From IMG/VR virus record IMGVR_UViG_3300012988_000016, positions 1-64,000 of that record: 64,000 nt of DNA, one strand, 5' to 3'. The notes beneath the pieces were generated by a model, which worked only from the letters and a program-made list of their open reading frames with translations, did not search any database and was not told where the DNA came from. Position 1 is the stretch's first letter, and the number at the start of each line of letters is the position of its first letter. The position numbers and the translations under genes are program-made. Below, in pieces: positions 2,750 through 41,550 of this stretch. This stretch comes from a virus.

Positions 2750-4297
2750 ATGGCCTTCTCCAAGTACGCCAATGCGGCAGTGGTTCAGCCCGTCGTAACG
2801 ATGTCGACATGGGACGATTTGCGTGCCAAGTCGATGGGCGGAGCTTTTGCCAAGACAGCCAGCTTGGAAGTGGTCCAGAAATACGACCCCAAAGAATATC
2901 TGCTTACACACTGTACCATCATCGCGTCTGTCGATACCGAGAACGGTCCTGGTCAGTTGGGACGTACGTTTGATAACGGTTTCCAGATCGATCGTCGTTA
3001 TCAAGACTACTACATCACTACCAAGACGGCACAGTATGTCAACAGCAATCAGGATAGCTGGGAACGTAACTTGTTGCTCGCAACGTTCCGCACCTTCATT
3101 GGTGGTCAGAATTACGTAGAACATTTGCAAATACCTGAGTTGTCTAAGGGACGCATCATTGATGCGGCGGCTCGTGATCTTGGAGACACGGTCTACGTAG
3201 ACATCTTGGTAGCAACGGAACTCAAGCATTCCCCTCTGATTGCGGCCATCAAGTCTCAGCAACTACAGACTCTAAGTATGGGTTGCACGGTCGCCCACAC
3301 AACCTGCACACAATGTGGGAATGTGGCGGAAGACGAGACCCAGCTCTGTCAACACATCAAATACTCCAAGGGCAATCAGTTCATTGATGCTCTGGGGAGG
3401 ACTCGTAAGATTGCCGAGCTGTGCGGCCATGTGACAGATCCTCGCTCGGTCAAGTTTATTGAGGCCAGTTGGGTCGCCAATCCTGCTTTCAAGGGGGCGG
3501 TGGTTCGCAACATCCTAACTCCAGATGAATTGGCCAAGGTTGGTAACAAGGTGCAAGTCGCCTTCTCGATGCCCACTCAGGTTCCGGACGCTTCTCAATT
3601 CGGAAAAGCGGCTCATCTGCAGACCAACGATATGAGGGTTGTGAGTCGTGTTCAGAACCCTGCCATTGCTCCTCGTACTAGGATTTCTCTATCGGATCCT
3701 TCGCATCCATCACAGGATCAAGAACAATTTGAAGGGGCTGATCAAGCGGCTCCGGCCAACCCTAAGAAAGATCAGCAACCCATAGATAAGGCAGTCGATA
3801 GCCTGGCTGATCTGATCAAAGAGAAGGCGTTGGAGAAGGTTCGAGGTGAGATGAATCAAAAAGATCTCCCCCCTCGTGCCGATTTGAAAGAAAATCAGAA
3901 CAACACTTTGCTGCGTGAAGCGGTCCAAAAGAGCTCCTCTTGGAAGCGTCTAGCAGAGGTGGTGTTGGCCCAAACACCCAATCCAGAGATGGCTCGCAAG
4001 GTCTTGACTGGCTTGTTGTTGTTCAAGAATGGCGGTTGGCAAGCCGTCAAAGAAGCTTCGTACTCAGGAACGGAAGTACTGGCAATCTCACGCTTTCTGG
4101 ACAACATCCAGGGAGTTAGGATTGCAGGCGAACATCGAATCTACCGCACCGTTTTGACTGTTGGCGGGATGTTGGCTTACGGAGATGCAGATAGCTACTT
4201 GGCGGCTTGTCGTCGAGCAGTTGGACGAGAACTGACCACATCAGAGACCGATGCCTTGATCACAAAAGGCAAACTTTTCGATCTCTCGAAATCGTAA
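2750..4297 (+). CDS. Prohead core protease (T4 gp21 / peptidase S78-like)
   Basis: 515 residues. It probably cleaves the scaffold and capsid precursors inside the prohead. The first 260 residues carry the family signs: a HLQIPELSKG block with the candidate catalytic His near residue 124, a VYVDILVAT strand followed by a helix, and LSMGC with the candidate nucleophile Ser near residue 175. A Cys/His cluster follows (CTQCG, then CQH), as seen in many T4-like prohead proteases, and then a SWVANPAF motif. Residues 260-515 form a long extension with an acidic/Lys-rich linker and a helical C-terminal domain, beyond the usual protease length. The next gene is a scaffold candidate and the capsid gene lies 2 kb downstream, which fits. 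No separate scaffold fusion can be proven. Confidence 0.85.
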   Translation: MAFSKYANAAVVQPVVTMSTWDDLRAKSMGGAFAKTASLEVVQKYDPKEYLLTHCTIIASVDTENGPGQLGRTFDNGFQIDRRYQDYYITTKTAQYVNSNQDSWERNLLLATFRTFIGGQNYVEHLQIPELSKGRIIDAAARDLGDTVYVDILVATELKHSPLIAAIKSQQLQTLSMGCTVAHTTCTQCGNVAEDETQLCQHIKYSKGNQFIDALGRTRKIAELCGHVTDPRSVKFIEASWVANPAFKGAVVRNILTPDELAKVGNKVQVAFSMPTQVPDASQFGKAAHLQTNDMRVVSRVQNPAIAPRTRISLSDPSHPSQDQEQFEGADQAAPANPKKDQQPIDKAVDSLADLIKEKALEKVRGEMNQKDLPPRADLKENQNNTLLREAVQKSSSWKRLAEVVLAQTPNPEMARKVLTGLLLFKNGGWQAVKEASYSGTEVLAISRFLDNIQGVRIAGEHRIYRTVLTVGGMLAYGDADSYLAACRRAVGRELTTSETDALITKGKLFDLSKS

Positions 4298-4343: not shown

Positions 4344-5570
4344 ATGCGCGAACGCACCACCTGGAATCGTGAAAAGATTGCACAGAACGTCAGAATTGCA
4401 GAAGACCCCCGTGCAATGAACCAAGACCATTTGAGCCAACAACCGGCAGCCGACAAGTATGAGATCGGTGGACCTTCGGATTTCGCCGAAGATGTTCATC
4501 CATCCAACACTACTTGGAAAGCTGAGTACAGCGGTGGTGAAGTCAAGCGCAACGAGATCGGAATGCCCGAACTACGTGGTGACACTTTCAACCATGCTGA
4601 GAAGACAGCTGCTGAACAGCAAGAAGAAGCTGCTGCGGAAGATGAGGTGCTGGAGAAGAAGGCCTCTCTCTGCATCAAGCTGGCCAAGCGCTGCCTGTCC
4701 AAGAAGGCTTCTGAGTCGATGATTGAAGATCAAGCTCTCGCATTCATGCATATGCCTGATGCAGCTTTGATCGAATCTGTCAATCGTCTGGCAGCCGAAG
4801 AGGAAGACGAAGAAGAGCAGAGCAAACAAGCTCAGCAACAGCAAGCTCAAGACTCGGAAGAGCAGAAGCAAGCTGGTCAGATTCCTGAGAACTTCAAGAA
4901 GAAGGATGAGAAGGAAGAGGGCCAGGAGCAGCAGGCTAAGCAAGCCCAGCAGCAAGCTCAGCAGGCTGACGAAGAGCAGCAAAAGCAGGCTCAGCAGCAG
5001 GCTAAGGATGATGCGGAAGAGCAGAAGAAGCAAGCTGCCTACCAGGCTTTCAAGGCCGCTTGTGATGCGATGGCCCAGACGGGCTTGCAGCAGGATCAGG
5101 TTATGTCGTTGTTCCAGCAAGCTCTGGGTCAAGGACAGCAGCAACAGGCTCCCGCTCAGGTTCAGCAGCAGTTGGGTGATGACCAATTGCTGGACCAGAT
5201 GCTCCAAGACGAGGTTGGTCAGCCAGTGTTGGCCAATAGCTTCAATGACATTGAGTTGGACGGTATCTCGATGGATGTTGGTGAGACTCACATCGCCGCT
5301 TCCGAGGATGAGGTTCTCAAGACCTTGTTTGCTTCCAATCAAGAAGTCATCGAAGCACAGCAAGCAAACGCAATCCTGACTGGTATTCCGGTTCAGGCTT
5401 CGACTGTGCACACAACCCGTACGGCCTCTAAGCGTACGATTGGCACTCAGCCCTCAGTTGGTGTGTCGGCAATCGGTAGCGGTGGAAACGCTGCTACGGG
5501 CGGAGATATCGACAAGTTGTCGAGCCTCTGGCAGTCGGCTCCAGACGTGAAGGGCATCTTCGGCATCTGA
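4344..5570 (+). CDS. Probable scaffold / prohead core protein, Gln/Glu-rich
   Basis: 408 residues, ATG start after an AGGAAAGGGTG ribosome-binding site. Residues about 90-240 are extremely rich in Gln, Glu, Ala and Lys (QQQQAQ, EEQKQA, KQAQQQ patterns) and should form long coiled-coil helices. The C-terminal 60 residues are Gly/Ser/Thr-rich and end in a hydrophobic SLWQ...GIFGI tail. Low-complexity charged helices, placed between prohead protease and capsid gene, are typical of scaffolding or internal core proteins removed on maturation. This is inference from composition and context; a permanent internal head protein is an alternative. The same composition produces a long spurious open frame on the opposite strand. 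Confidence 0.75.
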   Translation: MRERTTWNREKIAQNVRIAEDPRAMNQDHLSQQPAADKYEIGGPSDFAEDVHPSNTTWKAEYSGGEVKRNEIGMPELRGDTFNHAEKTAAEQQEEAAAEDEVLEKKASLCIKLAKRCLSKKASESMIEDQALAFMHMPDAALIESVNRLAAEEEDEEEQSKQAQQQQAQDSEEQKQAGQIPENFKKKDEKEEGQEQQAKQAQQQAQQADEEQQKQAQQQAKDDAEEQKKQAAYQAFKAACDAMAQTGLQQDQVMSLFQQALGQGQQQQAPAQVQQQLGDDQLLDQMLQDEVGQPVLANSFNDIELDGISMDVGETHIAASEDEVLKTLFASNQEVIEAQQANAILTGIPVQASTVHTTRTASKRTIGTQPSVGVSAIGSGGNAATGGDIDKLSSLWQSAPDVKGIFGI

Positions 5571-6316: not shown

Positions 6317-7198
6317 ATGCCTCAGCAAGTAAGCAACGAAGTCAAGCAGCAGATCATCTCCGAGTACATCAAGACCGCCGCCGGTCGTGCCAAGCTCGCA
6401 GCCTCGATGATCCAACCCTTGCGTCTCCGCCGTGACTACACGGCCGTTGGTCGCAAGACCTTCTTGGTAGAACAACTACCGGACGGCGCATTGCCAATCT
6501 ACGACAAGGATCCGGAAGTTACGGCTTTCGTGGTCGGCGAAGAAGGCTCGAACATCTTGGCTATCCAGAAGCCACGTCGTGTCATCTTCCCGTTGTTCGA
6601 GATCGCCTCGAACCCCGAAATACCGTTGACCCAGATCAAGGAGCGTCGTTTCGACCTCATTGAACGCAGCCAGGACCTCGCCAAGGCGCAGATTCAGGCC
6701 GCTGAAGATGAGCGCGTGTTCGCCGTCCTCGACAGCATCGCTGTCTCGGGCTTCGACACCCTCCCCGGCCAGACCAACCCGGATATCGCCGTGGTGGCCC
6801 CGATCTCGCCAAGCGTCCTCGCCGATGCTTTCGCGGAAATCGAACGCCACGACCTCCGTGTTGCTCGTATCTACATGAACGCCACCGACTACGCGGACAT
6901 CCGCAAGTTCGGTCGCGACATCCTGGATATCGAGTCGCAGGCCACCCTGCTCAAGACAGGTTTGCAGGCCACCCTCTGGGGTGCTCAGATCATCACGTCG
7001 CGTCTGGTTCCGGCCGGCTTCGTGTACGTCTGCGGCGAGCCAGAGAACTTCGGTCGCTTCCCCGTCCGCACGGAACTGACCGTGTTGTCGGCGGATGACC
7101 CGAAGGCCCGCACAATTGGTTTCAGCTGTTTTCAGAACGTCGGCATAGGCGCATTCAACCCGCGTGCTATGACCCGTTTGGTCGTCACCCGCATCTGA
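6317..7198 (+). CDS. Major capsid protein, HK97-fold type
   Basis: 293 residues, ATG start with an AAGGAAAAC site. The probable shell subunit. It starts with a helical arm (NEVKQQIISEYIKTAAGR), continues with an extended segment (PDGALPIYDKD), a long spine-type helix (RRFDLIERSQDLAKAQIQAAEDERVF broken by turns) and an A-domain pattern VARIYMNATDYADIRKFG followed by strands in TLWGAQIITSRLVPAG. That order is typical of HK97-fold capsid proteins from large myoviruses. No long cleavable N-terminal delta domain is evident, which fits a separate scaffold gene upstream. A strong intrinsic terminator follows directly, as expected for a highly expressed gene. Confidence 0.85.
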   Translation: MPQQVSNEVKQQIISEYIKTAAGRAKLAASMIQPLRLRRDYTAVGRKTFLVEQLPDGALPIYDKDPEVTAFVVGEEGSNILAIQKPRRVIFPLFEIASNPEIPLTQIKERRFDLIERSQDLAKAQIQAAEDERVFAVLDSIAVSGFDTLPGQTNPDIAVVAPISPSVLADAFAEIERHDLRVARIYMNATDYADIRKFGRDILDIESQATLLKTGLQATLWGAQIITSRLVPAGFVYVCGEPENFGRFPVRTELTVLSADDPKARTIGFSCFQNVGIGAFNPRAMTRLVVTRI

Positions 7199-25301: not shown

Positions 25302-25655
25302 ATGGCCTTAAATAATGCTCTTTACTCTCAATCTGCTCAGACGATCTCTTCTACTGAGTACAGCCTAACCGCCAACTCTACCTCTTTAGCTACGGTCACA
25401 ACTGTAGCAGTGATATCTGTGTGGATCGATGTCAATGCTTTAGCAGCTGGTGATGAATTTGAACTAGCTATACTTGAAAAGGCTGTAAGCGGCGGCACCC
25501 AGAGAAGAATGGTCATTGCCACTTTGGTGGGGGCTCAAGCTGACCCCCTGTTCGTCACAGCAGGGTGGCAGGTGGGAGTAGGTTGGGACGTCACTCTGAA
25601 GAAGATTGCTGGAACTGACCGCGCCTTTTCTTGGACAATACGATCGATTAGCTAA
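25302..25655 (+). CDS. Small beta-rich virion protein
   Basis: 117 residues. ATG three bases after the preceding stop, and its own stop overlaps the next ATG (TAATG). A single beta-sandwich-like domain: SSTEYSLTANSTSLATV, VISVWIDVNALAAGDEFELAIL, a TQRRMVIATLVG strand, then GWQVGVGWDVTLKK and FSWTIRS. It resembles small structural proteins that pair with fibre or tip proteins. Tight coupling to the giant repeat protein suggests they are made in similar amounts and may assemble together. Confidence 0.7.
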   Translation: MALNNALYSQSAQTISSTEYSLTANSTSLATVTTVAVISVWIDVNALAAGDEFELAILEKAVSGGTQRRMVIATLVGAQADPLFVTAGWQVGVGWDVTLKKIAGTDRAFSWTIRSIS

Positions 25656-28600: not shown

Positions 28601-29791
28601 ACTGCGGATGCGGTAACCCTATCGGATTCTCCCCTTGTATCTCTGTTTTCTGAAAAGGCCGCCTCTGATACGATTCAGGCCACAGATCAAAATACACTCT
28701 CGCTAGAGTTCGGCCGATTCCTGGTTGATTCAGTGACAGTGTCCGAGCAGTTGGTTCCAGACACCAGCTATGTTCGCCCTGTTTCTGATGCGATCGTTGT
28801 TTCAGACCAGAGCTCAATCTCCTCGGTCTACGAAAAGACGATTCTGGACACAATCTTCGTTGTGGATAGCCGTGCCGTAAGTTTGGACCAGAACCGGTCA
28901 AACAATGACGTCATCAGCTGTCTGGACCAGTGCACCCTGGCGTCTGAATACGTCAAAGTACTTCAAGACAGCATCCAGCTAGCTGAACAGCTGATCCCGT
29001 CTACCGACTACATCCGAAGCATCGCTACGGATTTGATCGACACCACTGAGCAGTTGATCGTTGAGAATGAGCGGGGGACAGTTGTTGAAGACGCCCCCAT
29101 CAGCGTCTCTGACGCGCTGTTGGCCGAAACTTCGTACCGTAGGTCAGCTTTTGACGCCTTGGACATCTCTGAGGTCTTGCTAGCGGAGACCCAGTACGTC
29201 AGAGACACTCAGCCGGACTCTATCAGCTGTCTGGATGGAGCTGAGGCTGCTATCGAGACCTTCCTTAACTTTTTGGATGACCTTGAGGTTTCGGATCAGA
29301 TCGTCATCTTCACCGAATCCAATTTCTCAATCGTCGAAGATGATGGGATTACGGTGTTCGACGACACGATCGTCAGAATCCTTAACAATGGGGTCGGTCC
29401 CAGCATCTCGGCGGATACTAACGCTGTCAAACGCTTCCGGTACATGCAGCAACTTCAGCGTGGGGACCTCTGTATCAGGACTTCAGATGCGACGGGTCCG
29501 TATGGGCCGGCGGCGGTCTATTACCGGCTCTACCAGATTTCTAAGTCTGGGGCCCCTATGATGGTAGGAGGGCGTCAGAAAGCTGTCAATGGGGCTGTAG
29601 GGGAGTTCTACGTCATAGGTTTGGCGGGTGAACACGGTCAACCAGGCGAATGGTTGATCAGATGGGAAATCCAAGATTCGGCTCAATCACCTATCCAGAC
29701 GGTGGACCAACGATTCCTGGTTTTGGATGCTTTGGCGTTGAATCCCAATGGGGGTTTTCCGCCTAGAGTCAACAAGTATGGTTGGGAATGA
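25655..29791 (+). CDS. Giant fibre-like protein of about 60 tandem 20-residue repeats
   Basis: 1378 residues. Residues about 20-1235 consist of roughly 60 consecutive copies of a unit near 20 residues long with the consensus xSD(T/S)(I/V)xVTDSxxxSxEYxRS. An Asp opens and another closes each short strand. Larger duplications are superimposed: repeats 2-5 closely match repeats 15-18, and repeats 31-35 match 38-42. The last 130 residues form a separate domain (RGDLCIRTSDATGPYG, VYYRLYQISKSG, GEWLIRWEI, QRFLVLD) homologous to the N-terminus of the next gene's product. It is probably an extended fibre or whisker with an anchoring C-terminal domain; paired Asp residues could bind calcium. That function is inferred. 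Confidence 0.8.
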   Translation: MSWSFGFVLFGEGVLPSTIDVVTSTDSIAVTDIGFNPYLQLSDTVAVTSSAVIEFFDGNVIAITDSSVADFPTTSAIDRSASDTVAVTDSATLQNVFDRSSSDTLVVTEDVVWDLYFNVDSISTSDSTLRSLEYNRSVSDTVSVTDSESNQVDKTLSDSVTLTDSTVASREYSILLGDTVSVTDAESNLVDKGVSDSIALTDSITVTLGTLIDISLSTDTIATTDAANTSMVFNVSANDTVSTTDSTVVEFIISVIDRSGNDSIAVTDSIFEERFLEVAASDTASITDSIVVSATYERASNDTVATTSSAVLEFYDGNQVTITDSSVADFPVTGVIDRSASDSISITDSATLQNVFERLPSDTIVVAEDLVWDLYRPADTITLTDANTLSVEYGRSVSDTVSVTDAESNQVDKGVSDSIALTDSAALSIEYGRTGSDSIAVSDQIQRETSFPQDSVSVSDTAVISLEYSRSANDTLTVTDNVSIGQTIDTALSTDSAALTDSTLLSIEYGRLVSDTISTSDSILVSAEFGRLLSDTCSIAEQTFIEKTFPQDSVTVTDSTIVGSEYSVIGSDAIVLSDSIQTSSQFDRTIQDSIVTSDFAFPEIESALTDVISILDTSATSIEYGVSTSDSILITDQTLREKTFPQDTVSVTDQTTLSSVYSLTASDALSIIDDVSATTSQSIDLFLNDSITVTDLTSTSSEYAKSLSDTLAATDQGSTEVTFNRTLTDSILTSEQLLVEKTFISDVVTLVDSQSTSLEIGVLASDTIQVSDQTLREKTFPQDAILVSDSLVLSSQYQRYLADTLQILDDVSATASQATDLFFNDSIVVTDQTLLSSVYSLTISDSLAILDSTVVDVQSTSSDTISVSDAVTAGLEKALALSDSVTTADSFLLGFEYGRNPIDSIVLADQTIPSIDKDRSASDTISTSDSFLRSLEYGRLLSDSISLTDSSIVDLFQGLSVFVADSAVITDQLIPSTDYIRLTADAVTLSDSPLVSLFSEKAASDTIQATDQNTLSLEFGRFLVDSVTVSEQLVPDTSYVRPVSDAIVVSDQSSISSVYEKTILDTIFVVDSRAVSLDQNRSNNDVISCLDQCTLASEYVKVLQDSIQLAEQLIPSTDYIRSIATDLIDTTEQLIVENERGTVVEDAPISVSDALLAETSYRRSAFDALDISEVLLAETQYVRDTQPDSISCLDGAEAAIETFLNFLDDLEVSDQIVIFTESNFSIVEDDGITVFDDTIVRILNNGVGPSISADTNAVKRFRYMQQLQRGDLCIRTSDATGPYGPAAVYYRLYQISKSGAPMMVGGRQKAVNGAVGEFYVIGLAGEHGQPGEWLIRWEIQDSAQSPIQTVDQRFLVLDALALNPNGGFPPRVNKYGWE

Positions 29792-31383: not shown

Positions 31384-31412
31384 TGGCTGAATGGAGAGGT
31401 GCCATTCAGCCA
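31384..31412 (+). promoter_or_regulatory. Hairpin presenting the ribosome-binding site in its loop
   Basis: 31384-31394 pairs perfectly with 31402-31412 (11 bp), leaving a seven-base loop AGAGGTG that contains the likely Shine-Dalgarno sequence. The A of the ATG at 31412 closes the stem. A short T-run lies upstream, not downstream, so termination is less likely. Confidence 0.55.
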
Positions 31413-32767
31413 TGCCTTACGCTTCAAATCGAGACCGCGATCCGCCTACACTCGAATTGGTGAAAGTTGCTGAACCCGCGGCACCTCTCAACCTTTTCAT
31501 GACGAGTGGGTATCAGCCGGGGGTGGTAGACCTATCTTGGACGGACCCTTCCCAACTTTCGGTCAACAGTAATTTCCAGATCTGTGGGGTCAACATTTAT
31601 CGGAGCTTTGACTCCGAATTTGGCCCCTACGATAGGATCAACCCCTATCCTCTGGGCGGCACGTTTTGGCGAGATCAGACCAACAATGTGTTGGTTCAGG
31701 ATGAGCAGGTTACCGATTGGGTAATGTTTGGGGATGCGGTAGCCGCGCAAAGAAACGCTCCTCGATACGTCTTTAGGACTAGTTTTGGCCCGATCGTCAA
31801 GGAGGGTTCTCAAAACATCCCCGCCAACACACCCTCTGACGTTGAGGTGAGAATTGATGGGATGGTGGCCCGAGTGGCCCGAGTGACGGGTGAGACGTGG
31901 GAGGTGGAGATAGACCCCAATCCCTATCCAAACGTCACCACTCAGCTGATGGACCCTGGGATCGTTCCAGGCCCTGACAGTGTGGTGACGGTCTCCTATC
32001 GGTACAACAGGTCTTTCGTTAGAACAGACCTGAGTCAGCGTATCTTCTATCGTGTCACCACCGTGGGGACGATGCTTAGCACACTTGCTGGCCCAGCAGA
32101 TCCTCATGAGCTGTTGGAGACGCAACTTGCCCGAGCCACTCTCACCAGCACCTTCGAATTAGAGAAGGTGGATTGGGTGTGGCGGGAAGCGGTTCGTCGG
32201 AATCGGTGGATTCTTGACCAGGGTGGGGAGCGGGTCAAAGTTTTCATTCGGAAGCAGGTTGGGCCTGTTTGCCCTTGCTTCAATACCCTCACCCATCACC
32301 AACCTGTAAGTGACTGTACCATCTGCTATGGGGTGGGCGTCATAGGCGGGTATGAAGGGCCGTACGACATCATCCTCGCCCCTGACGATGCGGAACGGAA
32401 GATAGGTCAGCGAGACACAGGCCGCACAGTAGAGCACTCGTACGAGGTCTGGACGACATCCAGTCCGTTGCTTTCTCAGCGAGACTTCATCGTCAAGATC
32501 AACGGTGAGCGATACAGTATAGGTCCAGTCAGGATGCCCTCCAACCGAGGTATGTTGCTACAACAACATTTCAACATAGGTCATCTGGACGAGAAGATGA
32601 TCCAGTACAGAGTTCCGATTGACGGGCCGAATCGCTTCTTGCCCAACCAGGCGGCTGAACTGGTGCCTCCTCTAAACTCTCCCGCTCAGATCACTGATAA
32701 GCCTGAGATTCCGGATGAACGGGAACTAAAAGGCCGCACCAAAACATGGGTTAACATCGTTTACTGA
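31412..32767 (+). CDS. Virion protein with FnIII-like and cysteine-cluster domains
   Basis: 451 residues. ATG 31412 is preferred; ATG 31391 lies inside the 5' arm of a hairpin. Residues 20-200 look like a fibronectin-III-type sandwich (GVVDLSWTDPSQLSVNSNFQ, VNIYRSFDSEFGPYDRI) followed by a second beta domain. Near residue 287 a CPCF...SDCTICYGVGVIGGYEGPYDI region gives four Cys residues, likely zinc-binding. I recall this Cys block from structural proteins of other large phages. The C-terminus is Pro-rich. It overlaps the next gene by one base. Probably a neck or head-tail interface protein, from context. Confidence 0.73.
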   Translation: MPYASNRDRDPPTLELVKVAEPAAPLNLFMTSGYQPGVVDLSWTDPSQLSVNSNFQICGVNIYRSFDSEFGPYDRINPYPLGGTFWRDQTNNVLVQDEQVTDWVMFGDAVAAQRNAPRYVFRTSFGPIVKEGSQNIPANTPSDVEVRIDGMVARVARVTGETWEVEIDPNPYPNVTTQLMDPGIVPGPDSVVTVSYRYNRSFVRTDLSQRIFYRVTTVGTMLSTLAGPADPHELLETQLARATLTSTFELEKVDWVWREAVRRNRWILDQGGERVKVFIRKQVGPVCPCFNTLTHHQPVSDCTICYGVGVIGGYEGPYDIILAPDDAERKIGQRDTGRTVEHSYEVWTTSSPLLSQRDFIVKINGERYSIGPVRMPSNRGMLLQQHFNIGHLDEKMIQYRVPIDGPNRFLPNQAAELVPPLNSPAQITDKPEIPDERELKGRTKTWVNIVY

Positions 32768-33264
32768 TGATCGCTCTACCCAAAATACGTATCAATTACA
32801 AGCCCTTGGTACCCAAAGGAGCACTCGATAAGTTTGAGCCCAAGAAGGTATTGAAGTCCCTTCAACGTCAAATCCTCGAAGAAATACGACGAGAGATTGA
32901 GGAATACGCCTTTTCCCCTAGAGCCAAGAGGGCTTTGAAGAAGGGTCTGAAGACCAGAATCTACGAGAGCAGCCTCATAGTGACCGCCACTCACCCCGCT
33001 TTCTTCCCCTTGTTGGAGGGGCGCAAGAGGGAACAAATGACTTGGCTGACCAAGGCTAGGCGGCCCATTCCAATCATCCTCGATACAGGAGAACTGATCT
33101 TTAGGTCCGCCACCCCCAGATCGATGGCTAGGGGTCGATGGTATCACCCTCGACGAGAATCTACCCATATTATCGACAAAGCGAGAGATGCTGCTCGAAC
33201 CGTCATCAAGAGACGTCTGGTGAGAGCGCTCCAGAAAACCCTACAAGATACCCTAAAGAGATAA
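32767..33264 (+). CDS. Probable head-tail connector / tail completion protein
   Basis: 165 residues, ATG overlapping the previous stop (TGATG). Basic throughout. Residues 25-65 and 135-165 are long helices, and the middle has strands around HPAFFPLLEGRKREQM and RPIPIILDTGELIFR. The helix-strand-helix layout, basic charge and position resemble HK97 gp10-type connector or tail-completion proteins, but identity is too low by eye to be sure. It is followed after one base by the next gene, so it is tightly co-translated. Confidence 0.65.
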   Translation: MIALPKIRINYKPLVPKGALDKFEPKKVLKSLQRQILEEIRREIEEYAFSPRAKRALKKGLKTRIYESSLIVTATHPAFFPLLEGRKREQMTWLTKARRPIPIILDTGELIFRSATPRSMARGRWYHPRRESTHIIDKARDAARTVIKRRLVRALQKTLQDTLKR

Positions 33265-33265
33265 A

Positions 33266-33868
33266 ATGAGCGATTCAGGCGGAGTTTCAGTCGTGTGTCT
33301 GACTATGGGTGGGCACTTTGTACCAGACATCAAGGTCGATATCCCCCATCGAGAGCAGATCTTCATAAAGATGGAGGACTACCTCAGATCGAGAGACCTT
33401 CATCGAGCCATCAATTCTGGGATCGTTTTTAAACTAGACACGGTGACCGTACGTCAACCAGTGGAGTCTGCCGTGGATATTGAGAGAATGGCCCAGCTGG
33501 AACTAGAGAACGCTCGCCTCAAAGAGGCTCTGGAACGGGCCAATAAGGTCAACTCAGACCTACATTCGGGGATGGCCAATCTCCAGCAACAGATGACCAA
33601 CGTCCTGTCTGCTTTGGGGCGCATAGAAGCCGCCCCAACCACGACTATTGTGCAACAAGTATCTGGACCTGGGGGTTATGTGCCGGCAAGTCAGAATACT
33701 GGTCCAGTAAGCGAAGCGGTGGGTGGGGAGGCCCCCATGTTTCTCCCAGACCTGAGTCAGGACTTGGGGGAGGCCAGAATCCAAATCACTGAGCAAGTTA
33801 GTGATGGGGATGTCTCTGGACCAGCTTCTAAGCTCCGTCAACTACGTGGTGGCGGCAAGAAGAAGTGA
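33266..33868 (+). CDS. Hypothetical neck-region protein with coiled coil
   Basis: 200 residues. ATG start one base after the previous stop. Residues 1-60 form a small alpha/beta domain (VVCLTMGGHFVPDIKVDIPHREQIFI, broken by turns, then DLHRAINSGIVFKLDTVTV). Residues 70-115 are a coiled coil (LELENARLKEALERANKVNSDL). The rest is Gly/Ser/Pro-rich with a Lys-rich end. No family recognised. Domain order suggests an oligomeric spacer or adaptor in the neck cluster. Confidence 0.68.
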   Translation: MSDSGGVSVVCLTMGGHFVPDIKVDIPHREQIFIKMEDYLRSRDLHRAINSGIVFKLDTVTVRQPVESAVDIERMAQLELENARLKEALERANKVNSDLHSGMANLQQQMTNVLSALGRIEAAPTTTIVQQVSGPGGYVPASQNTGPVSEAVGGEAPMFLPDLSQDLGEARIQITEQVSDGDVSGPASKLRQLRGGGKKK

Positions 33869-33903: not shown

Positions 33904-34551
33904 ATGCTGAAGCGAATTGCACAAGACCCCCATCAGGAGAACATTCGTGTAGTCTGGCACGAACCTACGCAATTCGATCATTTGCGGCACGGCCCTCCCT
34001 ATCTGCCAAAATCCTATGAGGCTGTAAAGCTTGGTAAGGATCAAAGACTCGAAGTCAAACAGATCGTCAGGACCTCGGCGGTCAAGATGGCTGGTGGGGG
34101 GACGATGCTTTCGATGTTGGCCATGCTTCAGGCGTTGGCTTTGCTTCATCAAACTCATCACTGGAGCACCTCAGGGGTTAGCTTCAGTGGGGACCACTTG
34201 CTTTTCGAGAGACTCTACAACGAGTCTCTCGAACTTATTGACCAATTGGCTGAACGGATCATTGGGTCGGGAGATTCAACCACCATCACTGCATTCGAAC
34301 AAGCGACCGTTATGGCGGACTTGTTGGTTGCGTTGGGACCGGTCAAATCTCCCGAGGACATGGTTCGCATCAGTCTGGGGGCCGAGGCCACGTGTGTGAC
34401 TGCCATTTCTCAACTGATTGCCACCATGAAGGCAGCCGGTACTCTGAGTCACGGTATCAGCAAACTGTTGGAAGACATTGCAGATAAGCACGAGACCTTC
34501 GTCTATCTGCTCAAGCAACGTTCTCAAACGGAGACCTACGATTTCCGTTGA
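33904..34551 (+). CDS. Dps-like ferritin with intact ferroxidase site
   Basis: 215 residues. Helices from residue 68 onward read as a ferritin-like bundle. The segment from residue 81 (HQTHHWSTSGVSF, then GDHLLFERLYNESLEL and IDQLAERI) aligns with E. coli Dps: His86, His98, Asp113 and Glu117 keep the spacing of Dps His51, His63, Asp78 and Glu82, and Glu102 stands for Asp67. Dps proteins form hollow 12-mers that oxidise iron with peroxide and some bind DNA. The N-terminal 65-residue extension is basic and longer than usual. The gene is closely followed by the actin-like ATPase. Role in the phage is unknown; virion component or protection of DNA are both possible. Confidence 0.82.
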   Translation: MLKRIAQDPHQENIRVVWHEPTQFDHLRHGPPYLPKSYEAVKLGKDQRLEVKQIVRTSAVKMAGGGTMLSMLAMLQALALLHQTHHWSTSGVSFSGDHLLFERLYNESLELIDQLAERIIGSGDSTTITAFEQATVMADLLVALGPVKSPEDMVRISLGAEATCVTAISQLIATMKAAGTLSHGISKLLEDIADKHETFVYLLKQRSQTETYDFR

Positions 34552-34571
34552 AAAAACCAAAGGTAAAACAC

Positions 34572-35600
34572 ATGAAAAAAGATGAAGGTAAATCTGTCAG
34601 TCTAGGTGTCGGTCTGGACATTGGTACCATGAACATCGTTTCCGCCAGATCGAAAGATGGTGGCGTGGTGACCAAGCGAGTGCGTGACGCCTTTTTGGAC
34701 TTAGAACTAGCTGCAAAGCGTAGCTTGAAAATGTCCAAAGTCGACTACGTGGAACGTGAGACAGATGGAGCCTTGTTGGTGCTGGGTGATTCGGCATTGA
34801 CGATGGCCAATCTGTTCAAGCGTGAGGCTCGACGGCCCCTCAGCCGAGGCTTGATTGCCGCTGGCGAAATCGACGCTCAAGAGGTGTTGGGGCTGCTGAT
34901 CAATCAAGTGCTGGGCGATCCCCAGGAAGACGGTGAGCACTGCTTCTACAGCGTGCCAGCGGCCCCGATCGACGACCCCTCTCAGGACGTGATTTTCCAC
35001 ACAGAAGTCTTCCGTAAGATCGTCCGAGACTTCGGCTACCACGCCCATCCGATGAATGAAGCCATGGCAATCATCTACAGCCAGTGTGCCGAGGAGAACT
35101 TCTCCGGCTTGGCGGTCAGTTTCGGTGCGGGTATGGCGAACATTGCCCTGTCCTACCAGGCCAACAAGGCCTTGGATTTCGCTCTAGCGCGAGGTGGTGA
35201 CTGGATTGACGCTCAATCGGCCAAGGCGCTTGGAAAGACAGCTTCTCAGATGTGCACCATCAAAGAGAAGGGGATCGACCTCCGTAAACCCAATGGTCGT
35301 GAAGAACAAGCGATCGTTCTCTACGTCAGGAGCCTGATTGACTACACCCTTCAGAATGTGGCGGCACAGTTCAAGAAGGTGAAGAACGACATCGCTCTAC
35401 CAGACCCAATTCCGTTTGTCGTTTCTGGCGGCACCACCAAAGCGGGCGGCTTCCTCGATATTTTCAAGGAAGAGTTCGAATCTCACAAGAAGCGCTTCCC
35501 GATCCAGATTAGCGAGATCCGTCTCGCCAAGGATCCGATGACCGCTGTGGCGGAGGGCATGCTGGTACTCGCCTCTGAAGAACACGAATCAGATAAGTAA
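34572..35600 (+). CDS. Actin-like ATPase (ParM/MreB superfamily)
   Basis: 342 residues. ATG 34572 is chosen because AAAGG lies eight bases upstream; a TTG at 34548 overlaps the preceding stop but lacks a site. Superfamily motifs appear in order: phosphate 1 VGLDIGTMN near residue 14, connect 1 MNEAMAIIYSQC near 165, phosphate 2 VSFGAGMANIAL near 185, and the adenosine motif VVSGGTTKAGGF near 283, ending in DPMTAVAEGMLVLA. Such proteins bind ATP and often form filaments that move or position DNA, plasmids or phage. No partner DNA-binding adaptor like ParR is obvious next to it. Its location in a neck-gene cluster is unusual. Confidence 0.87.
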   Translation: MKKDEGKSVSLGVGLDIGTMNIVSARSKDGGVVTKRVRDAFLDLELAAKRSLKMSKVDYVERETDGALLVLGDSALTMANLFKREARRPLSRGLIAAGEIDAQEVLGLLINQVLGDPQEDGEHCFYSVPAAPIDDPSQDVIFHTEVFRKIVRDFGYHAHPMNEAMAIIYSQCAEENFSGLAVSFGAGMANIALSYQANKALDFALARGGDWIDAQSAKALGKTASQMCTIKEKGIDLRKPNGREEQAIVLYVRSLIDYTLQNVAAQFKKVKNDIALPDPIPFVVSGGTTKAGGFLDIFKEEFESHKKRFPIQISEIRLAKDPMTAVAEGMLVLASEEHESDK

Positions 35601-35614
35601 GGGAGAGTGGGCCA

Positions 35615-36754
35615 GTGTACTACAACTTGGTAGGACCCCTGAAGCGGCGAGTCATCCTTGAACTGAAGGACAGCTTTTCGAATCATCCTGTCTACAACAA
35701 GATCGTTCCGTTCATTCAGAACCGATTCTCGTTTGAGGAACGTCCTCAATTCGGGATCGTCATCAAGGGGTCCAGTACCAATAAGGTGCAGCTGGCGGCG
35801 GACAACTACGTGGGCACTGTTCAAAGCCATGTAATGTTGGCCTATGTGGGGCAACCTGAGTATCCTTTGGAATGGGTAAGAGAGGATTCTAGGGTAGTGA
35901 CCAAGAATGGGGGGATGCCCACTCCTCCTGGGGTCTATTTGATGGAGATCCTGACTGCTCCTACGGTCAACGGTGAAGACGGCTTCTTCGTCATCGATCC
36001 TATGTATACGGTAATCGATCGTCCCTTGATCGTCACTAGAGCGGGCATGACAGTAGACGCTCAATTGGAAAACCTGCCGCTTCAGAATACGTTGCGGCTC
36101 TATGCCAACAACTCTTTCTTTCTCAAAGAGGGGTTGGACTATACGGTAGATTACGATACCGGTAGGGTTACCTTCATCACCATCTTGCCAGCCAACACAC
36201 AGGTGTCGGCGGACTATAGGTGGGCAGGAGAATCGATAGGGCCAGTGGCGTTTCAGTGGAATCAAGCCAATTGGACCACTCTTCCAGGGGTAGTGTTGGC
36301 TTTTGGGAAAAGGTCCGCCCCAAAACAGAAGGTGGCGGTGGTGGTCTACCAGGATCGAATCGATGCTGCCGAGGCGTACGGCGGGAAGTTCGAAGTCAGT
36401 TTTGACTTCGATGTGATTGCCAGGGATCCGATGCAGATGGAGGAGATCGCAGATCTGACCACCATGTATCTGTTGGCTGACAAGAAGAGTCAATTGGAAT
36501 TCGAAGGAATCGAGATCTTAGATGTCTCGATGGGCAGCGAGGCTGAGGAAATAGCAGATGAGACGGGAGAGAACTTCTTCTACCAAGCCTCTATGTCGCT
36601 GCAATTGAGAGCTGATTGGGAAGTGCACGTGCCGCTTCCATTGGTGATTAGCAAGATTAATTCCGGAGGTATCACTCCTGTTGCTTCCGACGTGTTGTTC
36701 AGAACACACCCTATTCTTCAGAGAAGAGATGATGATTATGAGAGGATCGGCTGA
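35615..36754 (+). CDS. Probable neck / tail terminator-type protein
   Basis: 379 residues, GTG start with GGGAGAG upstream. The N-terminus (YYNLVGPLKRRVILELKDSF..., IVPFIQNRFSFEERPQFG) and the middle (LRLYANNSFFLKEGLDYTVDYDTGRVTF, split by a turn) suggest beta domains. Residues 245-350 (KVAVVVYQDRIDAAEAYGG, MQMEEIADLTTMYLLADKK, LEFEGIEILDVSMG, ADWEVHVPLP) have an alpha/beta layout like tail terminator or head-tail joining proteins. Position just before sheath supports a terminator role. It overlaps the next gene by one base. Assignment is inference. Confidence 0.65.
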   Translation: MYYNLVGPLKRRVILELKDSFSNHPVYNKIVPFIQNRFSFEERPQFGIVIKGSSTNKVQLAADNYVGTVQSHVMLAYVGQPEYPLEWVREDSRVVTKNGGMPTPPGVYLMEILTAPTVNGEDGFFVIDPMYTVIDRPLIVTRAGMTVDAQLENLPLQNTLRLYANNSFFLKEGLDYTVDYDTGRVTFITILPANTQVSADYRWAGESIGPVAFQWNQANWTTLPGVVLAFGKRSAPKQKVAVVVYQDRIDAAEAYGGKFEVSFDFDVIARDPMQMEEIADLTTMYLLADKKSQLEFEGIEILDVSMGSEAEEIADETGENFFYQASMSLQLRADWEVHVPLPLVISKINSGGITPVASDVLFRTHPILQRRDDDYERIG

Positions 36755-37173
36755 TGCCTAAGTTCAGTTTTGAATGTGCCTGTAGCACACAATTCACCCG
36801 CACCCTAAAGATGGGGGACCATGCGACTCATGAGTGCCCTGCTTGTGGAGCTGAGGCCCCTAGACTTTGGGAAACCTTTGGGTTTGATTTCGCCAAAGGA
36901 GGCAAGTCACCTGCCAATTCAGGAGTATCGAAGCACGATTATCCAACAGCTGACAGGGTGGTAGGAGTTGATGCTGAGTCCAGGTGGAAGGATCAAGCTG
37001 CTAGGGAAGTGGTCAAGTCCAAGGTCAGGAAACAGGTGGGGACCCACGCTTTGATTCGAAAGAATGGTAAAGACTTCATCGATTACGAGGGCGGTACTCC
37101 CGAACTGATCGAACGTCGTAAGAATTTGGCTCAAGAGGTGAGAACCATTCAGGCCAAACAAAAAGACGAGTGA
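36754..37173 (+). CDS. FmdB-type zinc-ribbon protein
   Basis: 139 residues, ATG overlapping the previous stop. The first 50 residues match an FmdB-like single zinc ribbon: MPKFSFECACSTQFTRTL, then HECPACGAEAPRLWE, with Cys pairs at CAC and CPAC. The rest is a charged helical region ending in Lys/Gln-rich residues. Phages often carry such zinc-ribbon proteins near tail genes; function is not established. A cysteine-free protein of similar start (MPTY...) is encoded at 16161. Confidence 0.8.
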   Translation: MPKFSFECACSTQFTRTLKMGDHATHECPACGAEAPRLWETFGFDFAKGGKSPANSGVSKHDYPTADRVVGVDAESRWKDQAAREVVKSKVRKQVGTHALIRKNGKDFIDYEGGTPELIERRKNLAQEVRTIQAKQKDE

Positions 37174-37284: not shown

Positions 37285-40200
37285 ATGGCGATCGGCCCCT
37301 ACTCAACTTACGTTCCCCCTGGCGTCTACACCCGTACATTGTCGGATGCCAATGCTGCAAATCTGGTAGTTGGTCTTAAGATCCCAGTGGAAGTTGGGGT
37401 GGGTCAAGAGGAATTGACTCAATCCGATTACGAATTGGTGCGTGGTTCTAGCGCAGGACTGGATCAGCAGATCATCAATGAGGATGTGAGCGCCAGCTTC
37501 GTTGTGGATGACTCGAACCCCAACCACCCTATCTTGGGTTTGGCGAATGGGACATCAACACAGTTCATCGTCAGAAACGCTCCCATTGTGACGGGGCAAG
37601 GGATTGGGAAGATCTCTAACGACATCAAGACCCTCTCGGTGACGATCAACGGCGTCCCAGTAGCGGTAGGGTCGGTTCAGGGTGCAAGTGGATCGGTGTT
37701 TCTCCAGATCCCGCCCCAACCAGGAGACAACGTTCGTTGCACCTATTGGTTCCATCGTTCGGACACGAGTTTCACGGATGATGTGTCGAACCAGGTAACC
37801 ACAGTAGCCGCGTCATTGACCACACCAGGTTACGCTCCTTTCCAGGTTGTGACTGGTTTGACCGATACTTTCGTGTTCTCGGTAGATGGTACGCCCAAGA
37901 CGTTGGTCTTTGGGGCAGGTAGCTACACAGCCGTTGGCCTCAAGAGTGTGATCGATGCTGCGGCCGTGTCAGGCTTGGCTGTGTCGGTTTCGACTGACGG
38001 TCAGGGACGTGACCACCTCACCTTCACAGCTGCCCGCTCATTGTCGATCGGTGGTGGTAACGCGAACGGTGTGCTGGGTTTCTCGCCCAACACGAACACG
38101 AACCGTAACGCTACCTTCCGCGTATTTCAGCGTCCAATCGTAGACGGTACGGACGGCGGTATCACCACCACAGACCCGACTAAGGTTGTGGCGGTGGTCA
38201 ACAATGTCCAAGTGGTGGTGTCGGCTGTCGACGGTACGAACGGTTTGGTCACCCTGCCTTTCGCTCCAGCAGCTGGGTCGACGGTGAAATTGACCTACTT
38301 CGCCAACACCTGGCAGGACACATTCGACTACTTGCCCAACACACTGGTGACGGACGTGATCCGTTGCGGTTTCGCGGCAGGTCGTAACGACTACATTCAA
38401 GGCCAAGACTTCGTGGTCTCGAATCCGAGCCCGGACGTGTCGATCATCCACTGGGGCAGCAGCTTCGTTGTTTCTTCGGCTCAACACACCAGTGGCACTA
38501 CCCCCTTCAATGAGGTTCAGATCCTCCCCACCTTGGTGGATGATCGTCTCTTCTCGGTGGAAGCCACACGTGTCGTGGATACGACGGTCATCCCTGCTTT
38601 GGTGTCTTCGAACCAATTCCTCCTACCTGAGGTGCCGACCACAGGTAACGGACGTGACACGCCCCTTGGGGCAACGGTCTATGGTGCAGTATCGAACGGC
38701 CGCAATGGTCTGGATACCAATCGTCCTGACTTGGTGACGGTTCACACTGGCCGAGATTTGGTAGATGCGCTGGGCCGTGCGGCGGCGGTGGTGACGGTGG
38801 TTGATGGGGAGAATCGCAAGATCACTCTCAAGAACCCTGTTCCCCCGGATCACAAGGCGTATGCGACTTTCTGGTACAGCCGTTTGACGGATGACACGTT
38901 CATCCTGACCAACAAGGTGACGGGTCCGGTTGGTACGGGTCAGTTCGAAGTGCTTGATACCACAACAGGCAAGAACCTTTATCAGGTTCGCTTCGGAACC
39001 AAGTCTGGCCTTTCTGAGATTGTTCAATGGCCTCGCGGTTCAGAACAAGTGACGGACGGCTTCCACACGGGCGCCGGCACTCCTGTTGCTGAAACAGTCA
39101 CTGTGACGTTTGGGTCTACTTTGGCCGAAAATGCCATCTATACCAACCTAGGAGCAGCTCCTTACTCGTTCTTCCAGACCTACAGCAATAACTGGAGAAC
39201 CACCATCAATGGTAACGCCCTAGTTACCAACTTGACCACAGCTGTGCCGGCTTACTTGGTGTCAGCCAGAACCCCCACCAGCGGATCGAATTCGATCACC
39301 ATTCCAGCCTCTCCCGCCAATGTTTTCAACATTACGGTCGATGGCGTGAATGTGGCGGTGACATTGACGGCTGGCGCTAGAACACCAACACAAATTGTTG
39401 GTGAAATCAATGCAGCGATTGATGCCAACGGCGCTTTCAGCGGCACCGCTCCCAACACCTTGGCAAGTTTTGTTCAGGTGAACGGTACAAACGGTGATGT
39501 GTTCTTCGTTATCAAATCGTACACTACTCCTGGCGCACTGCCTGGTGGTTTTGATAACGCATCTACTGTGGCGATTCGTCAAGGTACGGTCGAGAATGTG
39601 CTTGGATTCAGCACCTTCCAATCGGCTCAAGGCACTCCCACAGCCACCAACAAGCCAGCCACCATGTTGGGTGGTATTGCAGGGCCGTTCAACATCACCT
39701 CTGGTGTCAACGATGTGTTGACCTTCCGTCTAAACGGAATCGACTACACCACGACCTTGCCAGCAGGTGCCGCGGTTACGGCTTCTTCAGTGGTGACCGC
39801 CATCAACAGCACCCCTGGTTTGACAGGTGTTGCTTCAGCGGGTACTTTGGGCAACCTGAACAAGATTCGTCTAACCAGCACAGTGGCGGATCCAAGCTCC
39901 AGCATTGTGATGTTGGATGGTTCGGCCAACGATGTGTTGGGCTTCCTTGATGATGCGACAGCTAGCCAAACACTAGTTGCGGCTTCTGAGGTGGTGGATG
40001 CCCTAAACGCTACCTCAGGCTTCTCGGCCCGCGGTGTGGCGTACGTCAGCACCATCAATGGCTCACAGTATGTGACCATTGAGTCTCTGACGGTCGGTGC
40101 TGCAACATCAAGCATCGTATTTGTCAGTGGTTCGGCCTCGGCCTTCAACCCCACTACTGGAACTGGAATCGTTCCAGGAACTAGCGGTGACAATGGTGCT

Positions 40201-41550
40201 GATGCTCAGGACAAGTTCACTGTCAGCTCGAACAATGCAAGCGGTTCGGCTGGTTCTGGTATCCCAGGTCAGACCTACACAGATGCAAGGACGGGGCTAC
40301 GTTTCACCGTACTGCCTGCCACAGACGGCAGCTACACTTCTTCAGGCTTCTTTACCTTGGAAGTGTCCCCAACCTGGAAGGTCAATCCAGCAGTTCCGTA
40401 CTTGTCGCTTCCAGGTTTGGAAACGGTGGTTACCGACACGGTTGGTATTGGGGTGAACGACACCGCTACTGTCAACACTTTCAATCCTTCTGGACTGGAA
40501 CCAGCGATAGGCGACTTCTACTTCGTCACCTACAATTTCAGGAAGCAGGACTTTTCGACCAAACTTTATCAACAGTTCAAGACTGTGGAGGCCAATTTCG
40601 GGCCTCTCTCGGCTGAGAACAAGGTAACGTTGGGTGCCTACCTGATGATCCTCAACGGAGCCGTGTTGGTGGGTATCAAGCAGGTGCTGAAGGTTCAAAA
40701 CACCAATCAAGCTAGCGATCAAGACTTCATTGAAGCGATCAGTGAGCTTTCGATCCCTCTGCCTGGTAACGTCAAGCCGGATGTGTTGGTGCCTCTAACG
40801 GGAAGCAGCACGGTTTTCGCGGCCCTCATGCAGCACTGTGAAATTCAGTCTAATGAGCGCAACCAGTCAGAACGCATGGGCTTCGTCGGGTTCTCGTCGG
40901 GCACCACTCCAACCACTGCTCAATCGGTGGCCAGGAGCTTGCTCTCGAAGCGTATGATGGCTTTCTACCCCGACAGTGCGGTCATCACGCTTTCGGATCA
41001 GTTGGGTGCCAGCTACGAGACTTTGGTGGATGGTTCGTTCATCGCGGCCGCTATTGCGGGCGCGGCTTGTTCACCAGCCGTCGATGTGGCGACTCCCTAC
41101 ACCCGTCGTCGCATCCAAGGGTTCACCCGTATTCCTCGGATTTTGGATCCGATTACGGCCAATCAAACGGCGGTCGCTGGCATCACTCTCTTGGAGGACT
41201 TGGATCCTTTGATCCGTATCCGCCAAGGTTTGACGACCGATATGTCGGACATCTTGAAGCGTCTGCCGACCGTCACTCAGATTGGCGACTACGTTCAGCA
41301 GCAAAGCCGCGTAGCTCTGGACAGCTTCATCGGTACCAAGTTCCTCGCTAGCCGCACTAGTGAGGTTGAGGTCTCGATGACGGCCCTGTTCAAGCAGTTG
41401 GTTCAAGCTGAGATCGTCGGTGGTTGGATGGGGATCTCGGCCACCATCAACCCCATCGACCCGACGGTTATGGACTTCGAAGCTTGGTACCAGCCAATCT
41501 TCCCGCTCTTGTACATCCAGATGACGTTCTACCTCAGAGCTCGCATCTGA
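37285..41550 (+). CDS. Tail sheath protein, very long
   Basis: 1421 residues; typical sheath proteins are about 400-700. The contractile outer tube of the tail. The N-terminus PPGVYTRTLSD and the C-terminal 290 residues (FTRIPRILDPITANQTAVAG, DLDPLIRIRQGLTTDMSDIL, SRVALDSFIGTKFL, and the final LLYIQMTFYLRARI) are characteristic of sheath cores. The middle carries several copies of a beta-rich inserted domain: residues about 189-272, 666-779 and 799-895, each ending in a VLGF motif, plus a partial copy to about 960. A similar domain occurs in the virion protein at 18279. These inserts would face outward and thicken the tail. A strong terminator follows. Confidence 0.93.
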   Translation: MAIGPYSTYVPPGVYTRTLSDANAANLVVGLKIPVEVGVGQEELTQSDYELVRGSSAGLDQQIINEDVSASFVVDDSNPNHPILGLANGTSTQFIVRNAPIVTGQGIGKISNDIKTLSVTINGVPVAVGSVQGASGSVFLQIPPQPGDNVRCTYWFHRSDTSFTDDVSNQVTTVAASLTTPGYAPFQVVTGLTDTFVFSVDGTPKTLVFGAGSYTAVGLKSVIDAAAVSGLAVSVSTDGQGRDHLTFTAARSLSIGGGNANGVLGFSPNTNTNRNATFRVFQRPIVDGTDGGITTTDPTKVVAVVNNVQVVVSAVDGTNGLVTLPFAPAAGSTVKLTYFANTWQDTFDYLPNTLVTDVIRCGFAAGRNDYIQGQDFVVSNPSPDVSIIHWGSSFVVSSAQHTSGTTPFNEVQILPTLVDDRLFSVEATRVVDTTVIPALVSSNQFLLPEVPTTGNGRDTPLGATVYGAVSNGRNGLDTNRPDLVTVHTGRDLVDALGRAAAVVTVVDGENRKITLKNPVPPDHKAYATFWYSRLTDDTFILTNKVTGPVGTGQFEVLDTTTGKNLYQVRFGTKSGLSEIVQWPRGSEQVTDGFHTGAGTPVAETVTVTFGSTLAENAIYTNLGAAPYSFFQTYSNNWRTTINGNALVTNLTTAVPAYLVSARTPTSGSNSITIPASPANVFNITVDGVNVAVTLTAGARTPTQIVGEINAAIDANGAFSGTAPNTLASFVQVNGTNGDVFFVIKSYTTPGALPGGFDNASTVAIRQGTVENVLGFSTFQSAQGTPTATNKPATMLGGIAGPFNITSGVNDVLTFRLNGIDYTTTLPAGAAVTASSVVTAINSTPGLTGVASAGTLGNLNKIRLTSTVADPSSSIVMLDGSANDVLGFLDDATASQTLVAASEVVDALNATSGFSARGVAYVSTINGSQYVTIESLTVGAATSSIVFVSGSASAFNPTTGTGIVPGTSGDNGADAQDKFTVSSNNASGSAGSGIPGQTYTDARTGLRFTVLPATDGSYTSSGFFTLEVSPTWKVNPAVPYLSLPGLETVVTDTVGIGVNDTATVNTFNPSGLEPAIGDFYFVTYNFRKQDFSTKLYQQFKTVEANFGPLSAENKVTLGAYLMILNGAVLVGIKQVLKVQNTNQASDQDFIEAISELSIPLPGNVKPDVLVPLTGSSTVFAALMQHCEIQSNERNQSERMGFVGFSSGTTPTTAQSVARSLLSKRMMAFYPDSAVITLSDQLGASYETLVDGSFIAAAIAGAACSPAVDVATPYTRRRIQGFTRIPRILDPITANQTAVAGITLLEDLDPLIRIRQGLTTDMSDILKRLPTVTQIGDYVQQQSRVALDSFIGTKFLASRTSEVEVSMTALFKQLVQAEIVGGWMGISATINPIDPTVMDFEAWYQPIFPLLYIQMTFYLRARI

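Follow-up and report, generated by a model that had tools for sequence, protein, structure and literature searches.

A Dps-type mini-ferritin gene with a lineage-specific extension in the neck cluster of jumbo phages

Introduction

Why does a gene for a Dps-type mini-ferritin sit among the neck and sheath-like genes of a very large phage, and what might its product do there? We addressed this question in a stretch of 64,000 nucleotides, here called the window, which makes up the initial 64 kb of a virus record of 308,895 bases (IMG/VR IMGVR_UViG_3300012988_000016). Phage Dps proteins have been reported before (PMC8008677, PMC6669764) and have so far been treated as occasional auxiliary genes for host stress. 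Here, Dps appears as a near-constant member of the neck cluster with an intact metal site and a lineage-specific extension. A first-pass annotation of this DNA had called a phage copy unexpected. Because phage Dps is known and catalogued (phrog_3636, phrog_858), the kind itself is not new and this surprise has to be narrowed; what was not found in the open-licence literature searched is a description of the subfamily in the neck cluster, of the extension that it carries, of its near-fixation in a jumbo-phage lineage or of its link to motifs of head proteins.

A divergent Dps-type ferritin

The gene product is a Dps-type ferritin, as first proposed, and the boundaries and residue numbering of the first-pass annotation were correct (Table 1). 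The 215-residue sequence matched the Pfam Ferritin family PF00210 (E = 1.4e-10, 41.7 bits with a cut-off of 24.5) and the phage Dps-like family phrog_3636 (E = 8.7e-13, residues 68 to 205), which was matched by 31/31 family members in a profile search. The single sequence also matched Dps chains in the PDB, and the best PDB match of the 31-member family profile was Nostoc punctiforme Dps4 (E = 4.8e-15). The NCBIfam cyanobacterial DpsA model gave sub-threshold matches in 31/31 members, and scores of 31.5, 22.5 and 21.4 bits were obtained for NF052461, NF006975 and NF041388, whose curated cut-offs are 300, 114 and 170. The protein thus represents a divergent member of the family and no equivalog. 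Weak matches to DUF5856 were seen in 18/31 family members; a literature search for this domain returned no papers.

An AF2 model of the monomer, built with the family alignment (pLDDT 84), yielded the ferritin four-helix bundle with helices A (68-88), B (94-121), C (150-177) and D (183-207) and, in addition, a BC helix (130-144), an extra element that is typical of Dps. All Foldseek matches in the PDB at E <= 0.001 were Dps proteins. Presumably, the phage protein assembles into a Dps dodecamer.

Table 1. Features of the window, with coordinates, strand and the evidence for each assignment
Feature	Coordinates	Strand	Evidence
Head-maturation protease	2750..4297	+	phrog_18299 6.8e-11; K-T-A-S at residues 35-38
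K/Q-rich scaffold-like protein before MCP	4344..5570	+	motif-rich; position and composition
Major capsid protein (MCP)	6317..7198	+	phrog_2522 3.9e-51
458-aa virion structural protein	31391..32767	+	phrog_1004 2.9e-4; matched by 11/14 homologues
165-aa protein, probable neck/tail completion	32767..33264	+	homologue match to phrog_5
200-aa neck-cluster gene, directly upstream of Dps	33266..33868	+	conserved neighbour
Dps-type mini-ferritin gene, 215 aa	33904..34551	+	Pfam, phrog_3636, PDB Dps by sequence and fold, AF2
N-terminal extension, residues 1-67	33904..34104	+	neck-cluster copies; absent from non-neck copies
Conserved motif WHEPTQFDHLRHGPPYLP, residues 18-35	33955..34008	+	kept in neck-type homologues
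K61-M-A-G64, possible maturation-protease site	34084..34095	+	loose form of recurring [K/R]-x-A-[S/A/G]
Ferritin four-helix bundle, residues 68-207	34105..34524	+	AF2 model
H86, ferroxidase ligand (E. coli Dps H51)	34159..34161	+	invariant, 32 homologues
H98, ferroxidase ligand (E. coli Dps H63)	34195..34197	+	invariant, 32 homologues
E102 (E. coli Dps D67 position)	34207..34209	+	mostly E/D; A, Q or M in some
D113, ferroxidase ligand (E. coli Dps D78)	34240..34242	+	invariant, 32 homologues
E117, ferroxidase ligand (E. coli Dps E82)	34252..34254	+	invariant, 32 homologues
Volactin-type actin gene, directly downstream of Dps	34548..35600	+	PF25216 E 1.7e-73
379-aa tail-terminator-like protein	35615..36754	+	phrog_123 E 0.003, weak
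139-aa zinc-ribbon protein	36754..37173	+	PF09723 1.2e-06, under its cut-off
1421-aa sheath-like protein	37285..41550	+	position, size, start; weak family support

Conservation of the ferroxidase ligands

The ferroxidase ligand set described in the first-pass annotation is present as stated, with H98, E102, D113 and E117 at +12, +16, +27 and +31 from H86. Eleven alignment columns were invariant among 32 viral homologues, a sample partly picked by patterns including H86 and E102, and H86, H98, D113 and E117 account for four of them. Given this selection, the ligand test was repeated on loci found via the neighbouring actin or tail-terminator genes, where sampling was blind to the Dps ligands. 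All four ligands were kept in every complete Dps copy of the actin-anchored sample. The tail-terminator-anchored sample contained 55 distinct Dps sequences, one of them a fragment, and the ligands were found in 54/54 complete sequences; their spacing was exact in 53 copies, while L141 carries all four residues in combination with a loop that is two residues shorter. The two anchored samples rule out a chance or pattern-biased ligand match. In case of the proposed substitution of Glu102 for Asp67, the residue is present but its position is less conserved, with E in 24, D in 6 and A and Q in one each of the 32 homologues, and M in several tail-terminator-anchored copies.

Mean pairwise identity between Dps copies was 40%. 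Retention of the ligands at this level of divergence indicates that selection maintains metal binding, which is very probably ferroxidase chemistry, and the phage protein would be expected to oxidise iron. Values of dN/dS of 0.11 (window and L003) and 0.10 (L004 and L006), at dS close to saturation, point to purifying selection on the gene. The invariant metal ligands also make an inert assembly shell, one of the roles first considered for the protein, unlikely.

Genomic context and distribution

The order 458-aa protein, 165-aa protein, 200-aa protein, Dps, actin, tail-terminator-like protein, zinc ribbon and sheath-like protein was observed in all readable loci, as judged from single-pass searches. 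The names neck, terminator and sheath combine weak family matches with position: phrog_5 ('tail completion or Neck1') was matched by one homologue of the 165-aa protein (E 0.0014), the phrog_123 (tail terminator) match was limited to the window protein, and PDB profile searches with the neighbouring neck proteins returned nothing significant. A homologue of the sheath-like protein is present in the 485-kb phage LR745208, and Tunturiibacter phage Tunturi_5 has an annotated tail sheath at a comparable place. The Dps gene lies amid neck-type genes and a sheath-like gene, and the context originally given for it was correct.

The TTG start of the actin gene overlaps the Dps stop codon. Dps was found directly 5' of actin in 12/12 actin-anchored loci with upstream sequence, and between the 200-aa gene and actin in 61/62 tail-terminator-anchored loci having both, where the 62 informative loci include near-duplicates. 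Two exceptions keep the actin in a slot that is without Dps: L174, where the neck cluster is otherwise there, and LR745208, where a Dps without extension is encoded at another place in the genome. Their absence from the slot indicates that Dps is dispensable. Distances between Dps copies correlated with those of neck genes at r 0.53-0.82, compared with 0.48-0.76 for neck genes among themselves, and the correlation with actin (0.55) was no higher than that with structural genes. As Dps distances track neck-gene distances, Dps appears to have travelled with the cluster as a co-inherited member and not as a stray moron.

A pattern-based scan of 84,980 cellular genomes, in which distant cellular Dps would be missed, returned no close relative of the phage Dps. 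Within the limits of the pattern search, the neck-cluster subfamily thus looks virus-specific. Together with the conserved synteny, this pattern-based result led us to reject a recent capture from a host.

The major capsid protein (MCP) has 454 relatives in viral contigs. The jumbo-phage lineage is a large one by this count, and the neck-cluster Dps is near-constant in it. No isolated phage in the collection examined carries a Dps of the neck type, and the collections yielded no cultured phage of exactly this lineage. Among the best 80 of the 454 relatives, the MCP is 91-98% identical; Dps identity between loci is about 40%. By MCP, Tunturi_5 is the nearest isolate at 47%, followed by Bacillus phage G at 38%.

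Several further observations were made on the neighbouring genes. The volactin-type actin is conserved in the neck cluster of jumbo phages, with a mean column identity of 67%, and its cellular relatives (35-41%) belong to Planctomycetota, Acidobacteria, Omnitrophica and haloarchaea. Its sequence gave no match in the PDB, and the volactin paper that we searched for phages makes no mention of them. In six loci (L033, L034, L037, L038, L040 and L174), a further small protein containing LWKYxDxxGxxFYLxEKK repeats is encoded after the 200-aa gene and before Dps or actin; some of these proteins end in RQAS/KTAS-WK, resembling Dps tails. A homologue of the 296-aa gene of the window is split in L003 (24-2235) by an intein/homing-endonuclease-like insert, and other mobile-looking ORFs lie among the neck genes of L003, L004, L033 and L035. 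Directly upstream of the neck cluster, positions 25655-29791 encode a 1378-aa protein of SDTISVTDS-type repeats; a repeat protein is also found in L004.

The N-terminal extension and its boundary motifs

The extension was poorly modelled (pLDDT 47-59 for residues 1 to 40) with the exception of a helix at 45-57. Its conserved part follows the pattern W-x-(D/E)-P-x-x-(Y/F)...G-P-P-Y-L-P. A regular expression detected it in 48/55 tail-terminator-anchored copies; inspection of the others added L149, L182 and a variant in L175, with L145 and L151 negative and two sequences incomplete. Neck copies without extension are L151 and L034/L145. The eight non-neck Dps proteins (L005, L014, L018, L020, L021, L022, L026 and L027) are all without the extension motif. 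Net charge of the extension is +4 in the window copy and ranges from +5 to -19 across homologues, whose ferritin domain is mostly acidic. A basic arm for DNA binding, as suggested in the first-pass annotation, is not supported and was set aside because this charge is not conserved; what is conserved is an aromatic and proline-rich motif. At the other end of the protein, many neck copies finish with a short aromatic C-tail (YSYDR, DPWK), and the Dps copies of L033 (4509-5417) and L040 (5021-5920) have an extra C-terminal domain of about 90 aa.

Short motifs such as KTAS, RMAS and KVAS recur between extension and ferritin domain and in C-tails, at varying alignment positions. We defined the class [KR][TVIMLQS]A[SA] post hoc from the sequences and counted it in related, and hence non-independent, homologues: 38/55 Dps extensions carry it (2.7 expected from shuffles), as do 14 C-tails (1.2 expected), whereas ferritin bodies stay close to expectation (4 copies, 3.6 expected) and non-neck Dps proteins have none (0/7). 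The window copy is without the strict form and has only the loose KMAG. Outside Dps, the motif was found towards the N-terminus of the head-maturation protease in 14/39 homologues (2.9 expected) and in the mid-region of the scaffold-like protein in 48/48 homologues (12.1 expected). This scaffold-like protein had no match in PHROG, so the name follows from position and composition. The N-terminus of the MCP bears the same motif as the Dps extensions, as one conserved sequence; the MCP being nearly invariant, its matches count as one event. Six neighbouring neck families showed no N-terminal enrichment, with 0-1 matches each (0.3-1.9 expected), compared with 15/23 for Dps (1.2 expected) in the same comparison.

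Per-family controls were used, as the raw KTAS 4-mer count mixed homologous proteins, including actin. A degenerate DNA pattern for KTAS gave one match over the 308,895-base record and three in reversed controls, and is uninformative because its codons are fixed. As a side observation, K-T-A-[S/A] sites in the window occur in the protease, the scaffold-like protein, the N-terminus of the MCP and a 498-aa protein of unassigned kind (13508-15004), which has an N-terminal HSKTASP and a C-terminal AKTASVDDLIWKA.

The recurring sites may represent a maturation-protease code. The simplest reading of the motif would be a head-maturation protease site, which would make the Dps extension a prohead-targeting propeptide and the protease of the window the candidate processing enzyme.

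Discussion

A virion role for the phage Dps is plausible. We see the scales as evenly balanced on whether the protein is a mini-ferritin that loses a prohead-targeting propeptide by cleavage and then remains beside the DNA in the head, protecting the genome. Dps would be made late, alongside neck and tail proteins, and its extension would draw it into the prohead. There, a basic-x-Ala-(Ser/Ala/Gly) site may be cut after the alanine by the head-maturation protease. The Dps shell would then stay in the head with the packed DNA and might be ejected along with it. By oxidising and sequestering Fe(II) with the use of H2O2, it could remove both free iron and H2O2, and the resulting decrease in Fenton chemistry and hydroxyl radicals may mean fewer DNA nicks in the virion, perhaps also on entry, for a genome of 300-500 kb. 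The wider proposition, in which the phages of a widespread jumbo lineage pack a mini-ferritin matured by proteolysis into their heads and deliver it together with the genome as a defence against iron and peroxide, is more tentative, and we hold it at somewhat under even confidence. Confinement of the extension to neck-slot copies counts for head packaging, the motifs that resemble maturation sites lend indirect support both to it and to a shielding of incoming DNA, and Dps-fold domains within proteins named prohead protease in BFVD provide a precedent. Counting against it are the different motifs of known phage proteases, the position of the gene among neck and not head genes, the neck copies that have no extension and the two slots that have no Dps.

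The main rival holds that Dps detoxifies iron and peroxide late in the infected cell and spares the host and the replicating DNA. Its place in a late operon would then serve timing only, and the extension would serve as an arm for localisation or for binding a partner. Such an intracellular role has been proposed for the Dps of Gratiaviridae and Lactobacillus phages (PMC8008677, PMC6669764), and it would fit both the extension-less Dps that other phages carry outside the neck cluster and the Dps that LR745208 keeps elsewhere while its slot is without one. It leaves unexplained, however, why the extension is tied to the neck location and why the boundary motifs recur in head-assembly proteins and not in the neighbours of Dps. 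We regard it as a real but doubtful possibility. The conserved slot between neck genes and tail terminator and sheath would also suit a Dps-derived oligomer, perhaps iron-holding, as a structural part of the head-tail joint, and the presence of iron in tails of phages is a topic of the 'Ferrojan horse' literature. This is quite unlikely, as the tetrahedral symmetry of a Dps 12-mer mismatches the 6- or 12-fold rings of a neck, perfect ligand retention implies metal chemistry and more than a mere shell, and L174 and LR745208 have neck clusters but no slot Dps. The overlap of the Dps and actin genes and their near-constant adjacency could further indicate a partner of the volactin-type actin, for instance a cargo or regulator of a phage filament. 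Since both exceptional loci keep the slot actin without Dps, and distances to actin correlate no better than those to structural genes, we consider such a partnership very unlikely.

If Dps is packaged in the head, this would explain how very long phage genomes escape oxidative damage and would show, for a lineage without a studied isolate of its own, by what code head proteins are targeted and processed. The extension would then provide a naturally evolved tag with which ferritin-like cages could be loaded into capsids. Should it prove to be a head-packing tag, these viruses would send protection against rust along with their DNA.

Comparison with known systems

The best sequence and fold matches to the phage Dps are cyanobacterial DpsA and Dps4 (5hjf, 5hjh) and T. 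elongatus DpsA (2vxx), with Foldseek values of E 1.8e-5 and TM 0.64-0.70 normalised to target. Cyanobacterial and phage proteins have an HH-aromatic motif in helix A in common. Dps4 differs in having His and Asn at the positions of phage D113 and E102, where the phage set is of the E. coli H/H/D/E type, and the motif of the phage extension is missing from it. E. coli Dps (1dps, 1f30) shares the ligand spacing H51/H63/D78/E82, with E in the phage at the D67 position, and the A-B-BC-C-D helix layout, although the two are only about 12% identical when aligned by fold. Its Lys-rich N-terminus binds DNA, in contrast to the phage extension, whose charge is not conserved.

The Dps fold is also borne by other phage proteins, namely phrog_3636, phrog_858 and those of Gratiaviridae, Lactobacillus phages, SU10 and phage G (gp346). 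A fold search of BFVD returned phage Dps matches, and similar proteins of Aeromonas and Cronobacter phages are annotated as 'DNA-binding protein'. Unlike the neck-type proteins, the other phage Dps copies examined, which are the eight listed above, lie outside the neck cluster and have no extension.

For the proposed maturation, the closest parallels are packaged proteins of other phages. Giant phage SPN3US packs ejection proteins whose N-terminal propeptides are trimmed by the prohead protease, an enzyme that cleaves after Glu and favours Ser at P1' (PMC10052503). T4 internal proteins and SPN3US E proteins are not ferritins and have another cleavage motif, and for the phage Dps cleavage is a prediction; the proposed logic of propeptide, prohead targeting and maturation cleavage is the same.
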